From positions 62,001 to 126,000 of the forward strand of contig NZ_CAJQNT010000010.1 in assembly GCF_905479755.1 (NCBI RefSeq): a DNA stretch of 64,000 bases, read 5' to 3'. The first letter of the stretch is position 1. Each line of letters begins with the position of its first letter. Below the pieces are notes generated by a model, which was given only the letters and a program-made list of their open reading frames with translations, ran no database searches and was not told the origin of the DNA. Positions 40,194 through 51,022 of this stretch are shown piece after piece. A program made the position numbers and the translations under genes. The DNA comes from an uncultured Schumannella sp. Lineage in GTDB: Bacteria > Actinomycetota > Actinomycetes > Actinomycetales > Microbacteriaceae.

Positions 40194-41144
40194 ATGTCCG
40201 GAGCCGTCGACACGTCCGCTGTGAACGCCGAGCGGACCGCTGACCCGCGGCGCATCGGGGTCGTGCAGAAGATCAAGGCGTACGTCGCGCTGACCAAGCC
40301 GCGCGTCATCGAGCTGCTGCTCGTGACGACGGCGCCCGTGATGGTGCTGGCCGCCCAAGGCATCCCGAACCTGTGGCTCGTGCTCGCCACGCTCGTCGGC
40401 GGCTCGCTCTCTGCCGGCAGCGCGAACGCGTTCAACTGCTACCTTGACCGCGACATCGACCGGGTGATGAAGCGCACCCAGAAGCGTCCCCTGGTGACGG
40501 GCGAGTTGAGCGATCGCGAGGCGCTCGTCTTCGCCTGGGTCACGGGCGTCGTCTCGATCGCCTGGCTCTGGGTGTTCACCACCTGGCTCGCCGCCGTGCT
40601 CTCGCTCGCGGCGATCCTGTTCTACGTCCTCGTCTACACGCTCGTGCTCAAGCGCCGCACGCCGCAGAACATCGTCTGGGGCGGCGCAGCCGGATGCATG
40701 CCCGTGCTGATCGGCTGGGCGGCGGTAACCGGCTCCCTCGACTGGGCTCCCGTGATCCTGTTCGGCATCGTCTTCCTGTGGACGCCGCCGCACTACTGGC
40801 CGCTGTCGATGCGCTACCGCGCCGACTACGCATCCGTCTCGGTTCCGATGCTCGCCGTGGTGCGCGGACGCACCGTGGTCGGACTCCAGATCGTGCTCTA
40901 CGCGTGGGCCACCGTCGCCTGCTCGCTCCTGCTCATCCCGATCGCCCCGATGGGCGCCCTGTACGCCGTAGCGGCCACGCTCGCCGGTGCCTGGTTCGTG
41001 CTCGAGTCGCACCGTCTCTACTCGCGGGCGATCCGCGACGGAGAGGTGCAGCCGATGCGCGTCTTCCACGCCTCGATCACCTACCTGACGGTGGTCTTCC
41101 TCGCCGTGGGGCTCGACCCGCTGCTCTTCCTGCCGGTCTTCTGA
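40194..41144 (+). CDS. ctaB: Protohaem IX farnesyltransferase (haem O synthase)
   Basis: Attaches a farnesyl group to haem B, the first step towards haem A for cytochrome aa3 oxidase. The protein is 316 aa with about nine membrane helices. The UbiA-family Asp motif is [20 protein letters not shown] (residues about 79-98), and the second loop is [29 protein letters not shown] is typical of haem O synthases. It is divergent from tkt, an arrangement known in many Actinobacteria, and converges on ctaA 18 bases away. Confidence 0.96.
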
Positions 41145-41162: not shown

Positions 41163-42092
41163 TCACCCGCGCGGGCGACGCAACCGCGTGCTGGCGACCG
41201 TGAAGGCGGCCGCCGCGAGCGCCGCGAGCACCATGTGGGCGCCGACGGCGAGTTCCGGAAGTCCCGTGCGGGCCTGATACAGCCCCACCGCGATCTGGAC
41301 AACCTCGACGGCAAGAAGGACGAGCATCCAGCGCAGCGGCGCCAAGCGGCCGCGCCACGCGGCCACCACGAGCACGAGCGTGAGCGCGAGCAGGGTGTAC
41401 CCCGGCCACGAGTGGAAGTGCGAGAGCAGCTCCGCGTCGAAGCCGTTGCGTCCCGCCTCGGAATCGCCCGAGTGCGGTCCGGCGCCGGTCGTGAGCACGC
41501 CGACGAAGATCGTGACGGCGAGCGCCAGCCCTGTCAGCCGCGACACCATCGCGTACCAGCGCGGCACGGCGAGTTCGCGCGGGCCGGGCGTCTGGTTGCG
41601 ACGCGCGAGGAACGCGGCCGCCACCGCGACGAGCGCGACCGAGGCGATGTAGTGGAACCCCACGATGAAGGGGTTCAGCCCGGTGAGCACGGTGATTCCG
41701 CCGACGATCGCCTGCGCCACGACGCCGCCGAGCACCACGAGGGCGAGGACGAACAGGTCGCGGCGTTCGCGACGCATCCGCCACACCAGCACCACCACCG
41801 CGAGCGCGAGGATGCCGACAAGTCCGGTGAGCGTGCGGTTGCCGAACTCGATCACGCCGTGGATGCCCATCTCCGGCGTCGACACCAGCGACTCCGCGGT
41901 GCACGTCGGCCAGGTCGGGCAGCCGAGCCCGGAGCCGGTGAGACGCACCGCACCCCCGGTCGCGATGATGAGCACCTCGGCCACGAACGAGGCCCAGGCG
42001 GCAACGCGCAGGCGCGTGTCGTCCACGCTCGTCGGCAACCATCCGCGACCGCGGCTCGAAGGCTTCAGGGTGGACGAGTTGCCGAGTGTCAC
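41163..42092 (-). CDS. ctaA: Haem A synthase
   Basis: Oxidises the haem O methyl group to give haem A. The protein is about 309 aa with eight membrane helices. Haem-ligand histidines are visible in MGIHGVIEFGNR, GFHYIASVAL, HFHSWPGY and VGAHMVLAA. A periplasmic cysteine pair is in GLGCPTWPTC. The start is ambiguous; I chose a GTG at 42092 (MTLGNSS) with GAAAGG 11 bases upstream, since the longer frame has an Arg-rich, non-conserved extension. It converges on ctaB and is divergent from sufB. Confidence 0.92.
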   Translation of the reverse strand: MTLGNSSTLKPSSRGRGWLPTSVDDTRLRVAAWASFVAEVLIIATGGAVRLTGSGLGCPTWPTCTAESLVSTPEMGIHGVIEFGNRTLTGLVGILALAVVVLVWRMRRERRDLFVLALVVLGGVVAQAIVGGITVLTGLNPFIVGFHYIASVALVAVAAAFLARRNQTPGPRELAVPRWYAMVSRLTGLALAVTIFVGVLTTGAGPHSGDSEAGRNGFDAELLSHFHSWPGYTLLALTLVLVVAAWRGRLAPLRWMLVLLAVEVVQIAVGLYQARTGLPELAVGAHMVLAALAAAAFTVASTRLRRPRG

Positions 42093-42147
42093 GGGCGAGG
42101 AGCCTTTCGAATCCGAGATGCGTGCGCCAGAGCCCGGCGCCACAACG

Positions 42148-42153
42148 AGTCTA
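42148..42153 (-). promoter_or_regulatory. -10 box of ctaA
   Basis: On the minus strand TAGACT (AGTCTA on the plus strand), 55 bases upstream of the chosen ctaA start. The leader includes the GAAAGG ribosome binding site. This placement argues against the longer ctaA reading frame, which would begin upstream of the promoter. Confidence 0.5.
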
Positions 42154-42223
42154 GGTCGGCGCGATCCGCGCTTCCCGCGCGCGACCACGCCGCCGCCCTC
42201 TGCGGAAGCCCAGGCCGTGCCTG

Positions 42224-42229
42224 TAAGAT
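42224..42229 (+). promoter_or_regulatory. Possible -10 box of the suf operon
   Basis: TAAGAT preceded by TG (extended -10 form), about 117 bases before the sufB ATG. The leader ends with AGGAGAGAGG. No sufR gene lies upstream; the neighbour is ctaA, divergent. Confidence 0.4.
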
Positions 42230-42346
42230 CGAGTAGTTCAGGCGCACCGCGGCGCTGCGCTCGGTCGCCGGAACTTCCGCGCGCGAGCCTGGACCAACAC
42301 ACCGACACGGGCAGAACAGTCCGCTTCGGCAGGAGAGAGGTAACGC

Positions 42347-48891: not shown

Positions 48892-48909
48892 GCCGAGCTG
48901 ACGCTCGGC
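48892..48909. terminator. Compact hairpin between the ABC-F gene and SURF1
   Basis: GCCGAGC (48892-48898), loop TGAC, GCTCGGC (48903-48909). It starts five bases after the ABC-F stop and its last base is part of the SURF1 stop codon. No T run follows. Confidence 0.55.
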
Positions 48910-49742
48910 TACTGACGGTCCAGGATCGCGTCTTCTTCTTCCGCATCGAGCTCACGCGGACGCGCCGCGCGCGCCGCGGCCTGCTCCTCGAGCGGGAGCG
49001 CGGCGATGCGGCGTTCGCGCCGATAGGCCCAGACCAGCCCGACCACCGCGATGACGGCGAACAGAATCCACTGCAGGGCGTACGAGGCGTGCGGACCCTC
49101 GTCCGCCTCCGGCTTGACCGCGGCCGCCGGGCGCTCCGCGGGCGCCGGGTCTTCGCTCGCCAGCAGACCGTACATCCCGGTGTACACCGAGGCCGGCACC
49201 AGCTCGTCGATGGTCGGCAGCTGGATCGTCGCGATCTGACCCTCGGGGGCACTTCGGCCGGGGATCTCCGGCTCGCCGAGCTGAAGGCGCGCGACGACCT
49301 CGACCTGACCGCTCGGCGCATCCGGGACGAACTCGGGGAGCGAGCCGGTGGCCGCGAGCGGCACCCAGCCGCGGTCGACGACGAACACGCGACCGTCCTC
49401 GAGTTGGAACGGCACGAGAACCTCGAAGCCGGGCAGACCATCCTGAACGCGGTTCCGCACGAGCAGCTGGTGCTCGCTCAGATACTCGCCGCGCAGCACG
49501 ACCGGCGTCCACTCGAGCTCCTGGTCGGCCTCGTCGAGGTGGGGGAGCACGGCGGCGAGAGGCTCGGCGGGAGCGTCGTAGTTGGTCTCGACGCGGACGA
49601 TCTCACTGACCGCCTCGTCACGCCGCGACCACTGCCACCAGGACAGCAGACCGCACGCGATCGCGAAGAGGACGACGAACGCCACGTAACCTCCCCAGCG
49701 CTGGACTCCCGTGGGGGCCGAGGGCTGCGAAACCTCGCTCAC
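48909..49742 (-). CDS. SURF1 family cytochrome oxidase assembly protein
   Basis: Membrane factor for cytochrome aa3 oxidase maturation, probably in haem A delivery. The protein is 277 aa with one N-terminal helix (WGGYVAFVVLFAIACGLLSWWQWSRR in part), a large outer domain with VVLRGEYLSEHQLLVRNR, VVDRGWVPL and GFEVLVPF, and one C-terminal helix (LQWILFAVIAVVGLVWAY). The SURF1 hallmarks are clear. It starts with GTG overlapping the stop of the small upstream gene (GTGA). It works in the same pathway as ctaA and ctaB in this window. Confidence 0.92.
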   Translation of the reverse strand: MSEVSQPSAPTGVQRWGGYVAFVVLFAIACGLLSWWQWSRRDEAVSEIVRVETNYDAPAEPLAAVLPHLDEADQELEWTPVVLRGEYLSEHQLLVRNRVQDGLPGFEVLVPFQLEDGRVFVVDRGWVPLAATGSLPEFVPDAPSGQVEVVARLQLGEPEIPGRSAPEGQIATIQLPTIDELVPASVYTGMYGLLASEDPAPAERPAAAVKPEADEGPHASYALQWILFAVIAVVGLVWAYRRERRIAALPLEEQAAARAARPRELDAEEEDAILDRQ

Positions 49743-49972
49743 GCGCGGTCCGGCACGAGCTCGGGCACGTCATCGCGCGCGGTCACCAGCGTCGGAAAGC
49801 CCCGCGTCGTCAGATACTCGTCGAGCGTGCCCCGGTGCGCGTCGCACGCCAACCAGACCTTGACCCGGTCGGCGGCATGGATGCGGGGGTTCCGCCAGTT
49901 GACCCGCCACTGCGCGGCCTCCGTGCATCCCGACGCGGAGCAGCGGACCGTCGTCTCGCCGAACCCGATCAC
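49739..49972 (-). CDS. Small cysteine/histidine (zinc-type) protein, uncharacterised
   Basis: A 77-aa protein that I recognise only as a conserved actinobacterial hypothetical. Cys11 and Cys16 (RCSASGC) and Cys43 with His46 (LACDAH) could form a zinc site of the CX4C...CX2H kind; between them is VNWRNPRIHAADRVKVW, a stretch rich in Trp, Arg and His. No membrane segment is present. The GTG start overlaps the stop of the DUF3099 gene and its own TGA overlaps the SURF1 start, four bases each, so all three are translationally coupled. A role in oxidase biogenesis is suggested only by this coupling. Confidence 0.75.
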   Translation of the reverse strand: MIGFGETTVRCSASGCTEAAQWRVNWRNPRIHAADRVKVWLACDAHRGTLDEYLTTRGFPTLVTARDDVPELVPDRA

Positions 49973-50256
49973 GCCGACTCGCCCGTCGGGGCGGGCGTCA
50001 CGCGAACGACGACGCCGCCGGGGGATTCGATCGAGCCCGCCTTCGAGGTGGTCGAGTTGGCGATCAACACCGCGAAATAGGGCAAGAAGACCGCACCGAG
50101 CACCGGAATCAGCACCCACCAGCCTGGCACCACGATGCAGAGGATGATGCACACCACGCGAATCGCCATGGCGATCAGGTACTTGATCATGCGTCCGCGC
50201 CGCTCGTCATCGGGCGACGGCGGGAGCGACGTGATCGAGGCGGATGTGGTTCTCAT
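49969..50256 (-). CDS. DUF3099 small membrane protein
   Basis: A 95-aa protein with a short polar N-terminus (TTSASITSLPPSPDDERRGR) and two adjacent hydrophobic helices, about residues 26-43 and 46-66 (RVVCIILCIVVPGWWVLIPV and LGAVFLPYFAVLIAN). The arrangement and the PDDERR motif before the first helix match DUF3099. The function is unknown. The ATG at 50256 lies ten bases from a minus-strand -10 box. It is first in the DUF3099/zinc-type/SURF1 operon and divergent from fabG. Confidence 0.8.
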   Translation of the reverse strand: MRTTSASITSLPPSPDDERRGRMIKYLIAMAIRVVCIILCIVVPGWWVLIPVLGAVFLPYFAVLIANSTTSKAGSIESPGGVVVRVTPAPTGESA

Positions 50257-50314: not shown

Positions 50315-51022
50315 ATGACTACGCGCACCATCCTCGTGACCGGCGGCAATCGCGGCATCGGCCGCTCGATTGCGGAAGAATTCGTCGCCCAGGGCCACCG
50401 CGTCGCGGTGACCGCACGATCCGGCGAGGGCCCGGAAGGCACGCTCACGGTGCGCGCCGACGTCACCGACAGTGCCGCGCTGGACGCCGCCTTCACCGAG
50501 GTCGAGGAGAAGCTCGGACCGGTCGAGGTCGTCGTCGCGAACGCCGGCATCACGCGCGACACACTCCTCATGCGGATGAGTGACGAAGACTTCGAACAGG
50601 TCGTCGACACGAACCTCGGCGGGGCCTTCCGCGTCGTGAAGCGCGCGAGCAAGGGAATGCTGAAGGCCCGCTTCGGCCGGATCATTCTCGTGTCGAGCGT
50701 TGTCGGTCTGTTCGGCGGCGCCGGGCAGGTGAACTACTCCTCGTCCAAGGCGGGTCTCGTGGGGATGGCGCGATCCATCACGCGCGAGCTCGGCGGCCGC
50801 GGCATCACGGCGAACGTGGTCGCGCCGGGGTTCATCGAGACCGACATGACGGCGGAGCTGCCCGAGGCGCAGCAGGCGGAGTACAAGAAGTCGATTCCGG
50901 CGGGCCGTTTCGCCCAGCCCACCGAAGTCGCCAAGGTGATCGCGTGGCTCGCCTCCGATGACGCCGGCTACATCTCCGGCGCCGTCATCCCGGTGGATGG
51001 CGGACTCGGCATGGGTCACTAA
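50315..51022 (+). CDS. fabG: 3-oxoacyl-ACP reductase (SDR family)
   Basis: A short-chain dehydrogenase of 235 aa, probably reducing 3-oxoacyl-ACP in fatty-acid synthesis. The coenzyme site is LVTGGNRGIGRSIAEEF, NAGITRDTLLMRM is the FabG-type NAG motif, the catalytic Ser/Tyr/Lys are in ILVSSVVGLFGGAGQVNYSSSK in part (VNYSSSKAG), and VAPGFIETDMT is typical of FabG. The ATG is seven bases after a -10 box. It converges on serB and the two stop codons overlap. The substrate could be another 3-oxoacyl compound, as it is not beside other fab genes. Confidence 0.88.
   Translation: MTTRTILVTGGNRGIGRSIAEEFVAQGHRVAVTARSGEGPEGTLTVRADVTDSAALDAAFTEVEEKLGPVEVVVANAGITRDTLLMRMSDEDFEQVVDTNLGGAFRVVKRASKGMLKARFGRIILVSSVVGLFGGAGQVNYSSSKAGLVGMARSITRELGGRGITANVVAPGFIETDMTAELPEAQQAEYKKSIPAGRFAQPTEVAKVIAWLASDDAGYISGAVIPVDGGLGMGH

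Follow-up and report, generated by a model that had tools for sequence, protein, structure and literature searches.

The 77-residue protein encoded between a DUF3099 gene and SURF1 in the window (the whole 64-kb stretch of DNA analysed here) is real and widespread in actinobacteria, and its adjacency to SURF1 appears, from neighbourhoods and losses, to be mostly a matter of inherited position. We lean towards the view that it is an independent, common but dispensable actinobacterial factor, structured by zinc and located in the cytosol, with a role of its own apart from SURF1. It is probably not a required part of oxidase building, since SURF1 and the oxidase often occur without it. This view builds on what can be read from the sequences, i.e., invariant residues, predicted secondary structure, neighbourhoods and losses. 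Eleven residues of this small protein are fixed in 189 relatives and it is present in 99 of 266 genomes of the class, yet it stays below every cut-off of two large, curated collections of family models. It is small enough for quick expression and structure solution, and the genomes that lack it beside an intact SURF1 are ready comparisons for any role in oxidase assembly.

ORF listing and translation of the window give three minus-strand genes in the order DUF3099, 77-aa protein, SURF1, with the four-base overlaps that the earlier note had described; both junctions read GTGA. The first encodes a DUF3099 protein of 95 residues (49969..50256, minus strand; PF11298, E 1.6e-22, 79.9 bits for a cut-off of 23.2), whose hydrophobic stretch at about residues 21-70 has room for the two membrane helices that had been ascribed to it. 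Its stop overlaps (49969..49972) the GTG start of the 77-aa protein (P0001; 49739..49972, minus strand), which is above no family-model cut-off. The stop of the latter overlaps in turn (49739..49742) the GTG start of a SURF1 family protein of 277 residues (48909..49742, minus strand; PF02104, E 3.5e-35, 122.6 bits for a cut-off of 23.4; NCBIfam NF050123, E 5.7e-74). SURF1 is an assembly factor for haem a and the oxidase and a separate membrane protein, with one hydrophobic segment near either terminus, whereas the 77-aa protein has no hydrophobic segment and is soluble by hydropathy. On the other side of DUF3099, and divergent from it, lies a fabG-like short-chain dehydrogenase gene (50318..51022, plus strand; PF13561, E 1.5e-57), a neighbour that is kept at many loci. 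Pfam matches also confirm that ctaB and ctaA are in the window: a ctaB-like UbiA prenyltransferase gene (40194..41144, plus strand; PF01040, E 1.1e-66) and ctaA (COX15-CtaA; 41163..42308, minus strand, start codon uncertain; PF02628, E 1.2e-22), which are respectively 7.8 kb and 6.6 kb from SURF1 when measured from the nearer ends. The genome of the window has a second, distant SURF1 in a different neighbourhood (G000:C31:29900-30514; L002, L365:9822-10592; PF02104, E 2.2e-20), beside what we take to be guaA-like and cation-antiporter-like genes, and the class sample gives two SURF1 matches for the genomes of the window's taxonomic order.

The translation contains the Cys11, Cys16, Cys43 and His46 that had been singled out as possible metal ligands, and all four are under strict conservation. 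In a set of 189 distinct relatives (matches at E 1e-8 or better from the fetched loci, after dropping rows with at least 25 gaps; the plasmid copies described below fall outside this set), C11, S12, C16, W26, N28, H32, R36, K38, W40, C43 and H46 are invariant in every sequence and P29 is kept in 188. The same eleven residues were already invariant in an alignment of 74 sequences, and the length of the relatives ranges from about 65 to 95 residues. An AlphaFold2 model made with the 74 sequences (pLDDT 92.8, pTM 0.81) predicts strands at residues 22-26 and 38-42, a helix at 47-56 and a strand at 61-65. The conserved residues fall on this predicted framework in three groups. The Cys11-Cys16 pair (C-x4-C, with the invariant S12; codons at 49925..49942, minus strand) comes first, then the loop W26-x-N28-P29-x2-H32-x3-R36-x-K38-x-W40 (49853..49897, minus strand) between two of the modelled strands, and finally the Cys43-His46 pair (C-x2-H; 49835..49846, minus strand), which by DSSP of the model stands directly before helix 47-56.

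This arrangement has the ligand order of a treble clef, a fold class of zinc proteins: a ligand pair at a knuckle, then a hairpin (22-26/38-42), then another ligand pair directly ahead of a helix. A treble-clef-like fold is thus suggested by the position of the two pairs, and it is very plausible, given the conservation and the model, that the protein binds a metal. The likeness to treble-clef zinc proteins lies in the C-x4-C before the predicted hairpin and the C-x2-H before the predicted helix; the difference is that the comparison of the model with solved structures by Foldseek gave a best E of 1.0. A second look with VIA-align found no good structural match either, the best row (Z 4.2) being a phycobilisome part and the weak rows including zinc domains (p62 ZZ and JADE1 PZP at Z 2.0-2.3, CYLD USP at Z 3.1) as well as metal chaperones (NosL, Z 2.9; UreE, Z 2.2). 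To our knowledge, the conserved W-x-N-P...W loop is unfamiliar from the treble-clef class.

By sequence, the window's own copy is above no curated cut-off in Pfam or NCBIfam, and the best E over the 74 relatives is 0.01 in each library. The C-x4-C stretch (residues 10-22) aligns with Zf_WRKY19 (PF24906), but at E 0.096 and 13 bits for a cut-off of 27, so that the protein is not a member, and only 3 of the 74 relatives match that model even at E 10. Solved structures searched by sequence returned three chance-level matches. One of them is the RAR1 domain 2xcm, presumably a CHORD domain, which has a C-x4-C followed by H, R, K/R, W and C in similar order, but E is 3.1. An origin in phages or viruses was considered and rejected: there are no matches in 50,697 phage records, none of 38 pattern stretches in viral contigs is a relative, and PHROGs gave merely E 0.011 to a tail-fibre family. 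The family is unnamed, and among the listed titles and abstract beginnings of papers on SURF1 in actinobacteria, C. glutamicum and Streptomyces there was no description of its function; for DUF3099 the library searched contained no paper.

Within the family of the window the arrangement is more than a chance one. A relative of the 77-aa protein is present in 132 of 150 genomes, and the first 30 loci all showed DUF3099 and SURF1 matches. In 99 distinct loci (close relatives chosen as best matches, nearly all of the window's family), the gene is always preceded by DUF3099 and followed by SURF1 on its own strand, with the four-base overlap kept in 77 loci at the DUF3099 junction and in 87 at the SURF1 junction. 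A lone overlap of this kind is ordinary (a crude gene caller finds it in 9 of the 34 codirectional neighbour pairs in the window); its conservation is out of the ordinary. The retention of the SURF1 junction exceeds what drift should leave, which counts against our favoured view and for a rival one, in which the protein is an accessory maturation factor of the aa3 oxidase. It would then act on the cytosolic side, be made together with SURF1, deliver or time a step in the insertion of haem a or copper, and be useful but replaceable. We regard this as rather unlikely.

The 18 family genomes without the protein amount to natural deletions, and they bear directly on the rival view. A profile search to E 1 returned only short fragments in seven of them (best E 0.011). 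SURF1 is matched in 17 of the 18 (weakly in G081, where the match may be to a second copy), and 16 of the 18 have a DUF3099 match; at the 16 loci with both there is no relative of the 77-aa protein between the two, the spacing between the domain matches being 26-314 nt (the three longest gaps are in G061, G070 and G132). The oxidase subunit I (CtaD, TIGR02891) is matched in 14 of the 18 genomes, 12 of them above the cut-off. All 12 high-quality genomes without the protein have CtaD (in 11 the match exceeds the cut-off, in the other it is split in two), and the four deletion genomes lacking a CtaD match are 75-83% complete. A tree of 64 SURF1 proteins implies six changes of presence or absence, with the starred branches forcing two; it has three long branches and unsettled bootstrap support. 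SURF1 and the oxidase thus persist without the 77-aa protein, which is not needed wherever both occur, as a dedicated SURF1/aa3 assembly factor would be. The joint action with SURF1 that the earlier note had read from the gene coupling therefore stands in part: the overlap is kept within the family, but the protein is not required.

The distribution beyond the family points in both directions. The class sample of 266 genomes has 99 carriers of the 77-aa protein and 219 genomes with SURF1. Carriage tracks SURF1, at 94 of the 219 genomes with SURF1 for 5 of the 47 without (Fisher p 2e-5, kinship ignored), an association that is awkward for our favoured view and speaks for an oxidase role. Frequent occurrence without SURF1, which by the earlier note would refute its idea, was not seen: SURF1 gives a match in 94 of the 99 carriers, leaving five without one (G550, G600, G613, G694 and G744). 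Against an oxidase role are these five carriers and the 125 of 219 SURF1-positive genomes that lack the protein. In the phylum sample of 396 genomes, it occurs in 24, SURF1 in 127 and DUF3099 in 39 (38 above the cut-off), and all 24 carriers have both SURF1 and DUF3099 somewhere in the genome. The reverse does not hold in family f6, which we take to be Mycobacterium-like from its PPE-type genes: all 14 of its genomes in the phylum sample have SURF1 and DUF3099 without the 77-aa protein, and of the 20 f6 genomes listed with SURF1 in the class sample, 18 lack it. The two f6 carriers (G708 and G743; L260, L261) have it in an unusual location, perhaps after transfer, with what is presumably a PAP2-like gene adjoining and a BluB-like gene near. 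One genome has, besides a full copy, a second copy in two pieces (G010:C1:21712-21941). In Lacisediminihabitans changchengi (L088, L089) two scaffolds carry the locus and their match figures are identical, which may reflect a duplication in the assembly.

The neighbourhoods of 70 wider loci were read. The class sample has 86 carriers that do not belong to the family of the window, and 68 of these are covered (all but 18 carriers of family f5, which is Streptomyces-like by size), together with two members of that family. The common order has fabI and fabG, often with dodecin, pointing away, followed by DUF3099, the 77-aa protein gene, a convergent moaA, and SURF1; Pfam on example loci confirms the MoaA, MobA-like, DUF6457, dodecin and FabG/FabI-like assignments. 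An opposite-strand moaA stands between the 77-aa protein gene and SURF1 in 35 of the 70 loci (within 4 kb in 32, farther in 3), four of which belong to the taxonomic order of the window. SURF1 follows directly in 8 loci, all of that order, and is outside the fetched stretch in 27, in some of which it is farther away (G714 and G719, by coordinates). Outside the order of the window, moaA separates the two genes in all 31 loci with SURF1 in the fetched stretch. The coupling to SURF1 claimed from the window thus describes the loci of its family but not those farther afield. Loci with and without the intervening moaA both occur in family f4, a hint that moaA may have been lost from the gap on more than one occasion. 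At 9 of the 70 loci none of the sought neighbours was found, and inspection by eye revealed no recurrent substitute there.

These patterns fit the independent factor that we favour, which may be pictured as follows. The protein would fold around a single metal ion, most probably zinc, with C11, C16, C43 and H46 as its ligands and with a knuckle, hairpin and helix arranged much as in a treble clef. Its basic and aromatic loop (W26, N28, P29, H32, R36, K38 and W40) may bind RNA, a nucleotide or some other anionic partner, or else a protein. The old neighbourhood would have been fabI-fabG, dodecin, DUF3099, the 77-aa protein gene, moaA and SURF1, with moaA there first and later lost, so that the gene abuts SURF1 wherever moaA is absent from between them. 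In the family of the window, the overlaps suggest that DUF3099, the 77-aa protein and SURF1 are probably one transcript with stop-start translational coupling. The adjacency to SURF1 would be, for the most part, an inherited position.

The best evidence for a link with the oxidase is on Kocuria plasmids. The 77-aa protein is matched in 4 of 72,556 plasmid records: two of Kocuria rosea, one of Citricoccus and one of Microbacterium, the last a 465-kb record with an ordinary DUF3099 locus. In the plasmid of K. rosea 13 (NZ_CP127859), the 77-aa protein and SURF1 genes overlap by four bases, CopC and CcdA are near, and a CopD-Caa3_CtaG fusion is encoded about 7 kb upstream. In the K. rosea RP1 plasmid, a SURF1-like start of 42 codons is seen by eye directly behind the 77-aa protein gene, a full SURF1 is about 2.4 kb away, and CopC and annotated oxidase assembly genes are present. 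Both plasmids speak for an oxidase role, and their CtaG/CopC-type neighbours sit uneasily with our favoured view; the Kocuria copies differ at R36 and R57. Genes for oxidase assembly, CopC and CopD are annotated on the Citricoccus plasmid (NZ_CP039426) too, but it argues the other way, as its 77-aa protein frame is without C11, C43 and W40 (two of the four ligands are gone) while the SURF1 behind it is open. Most plasmid-borne SURF1 genes have no such companion. SURF1 is on 40 records of the plasmid collection (one of 11.9 Mb, i.e., chromosome-sized), and 36 of these have no match to the 77-aa protein; for five of them a full profile scan reaching 3 kb from SURF1 was likewise negative. SURF1 thus travels without the 77-aa protein, a further point against the oxidase role. 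Among the SURF1 plasmid records, which include L375, L376, L377, L378 and L381, several of those read have an oxidase assembly protein, CopC, CcdA or ResB annotated near, as though plasmids were moving sets of oxidase or cytochrome assembly genes. A plasmid record of Tsukamurella (L382:2505-3837) has a tyrosine-phosphatase gene annotated with an 8-base overlap onto SURF1, so that genes of other kinds share overlaps with SURF1 as well.

A small genome, G016 (one contig of 927,303 bases, 98% complete), keeps both the 77-aa protein and SURF1 and has the haem-copper oxidase subunit I motif. The retention of the pair in 0.93 Mb again supports an oxidase role at the expense of the independent factor. 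According to a review, Surf1 of Corynebacterium glutamicum is needed for the bc1-aa3 supercomplex, its exact role being unclear (PMC9145763). In its fuller form, the oxidase reading would make this unnamed family of zinc-structured cytosolic proteins, whose 189 relatives come from across the class, an accessory factor in the assembly of the actinobacterial bc1-aa3 oxidase. It would be translated together with SURF1 in the family of the window and travel on plasmids with SURF1 and copper-insertion genes. This seems to us unlikely.

If the partner were instead the membrane protein DUF3099, the presence of SURF1 would be incidental. In 46 of the 70 wider loci a DUF3099 gene does indeed precede that of the 77-aa protein on the same strand, at a distance of no more than 400 nt, and DUF3099 is in the genomes of all 24 phylum-sample carriers. 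Such a partnership is nevertheless improbable, because DUF3099 does without the 77-aa protein in all 14 of the f6 genomes that the phylum sample contains and in 16 of the 18 family genomes that lack the latter. Conversely, G016 has no tblastn match to DUF3099 (or to dodecin), which indicates that DUF3099 is not needed by the 77-aa protein, and the three mobilizable plasmids with a copy of the protein gave no DUF3099 match.

A role in molybdenum-cofactor synthesis, to which the convergent moaA, mobA or DUF6457 genes within 1.5 kb downstream on the opposite strand in 44 of the 70 wider loci might point (even with neither DUF3099 nor SURF1 close by, as in many f93 loci and in G613), is highly improbable: convergent genes are not co-transcribed with that of the 77-aa protein, SURF1 and not moaA comes next at the loci of the window's family, and the absence from G016 of tblastn matches to MoaA or MobA at E 1e-3 (for queries without a positive control in a second genome) makes a general role of this kind unlikely. 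In G613 (L264:7152-12222), the 77-aa protein gene adjoins a DUF6457-mobA-moaA run, and this is followed by what we take to be selB-like and selA-like genes.
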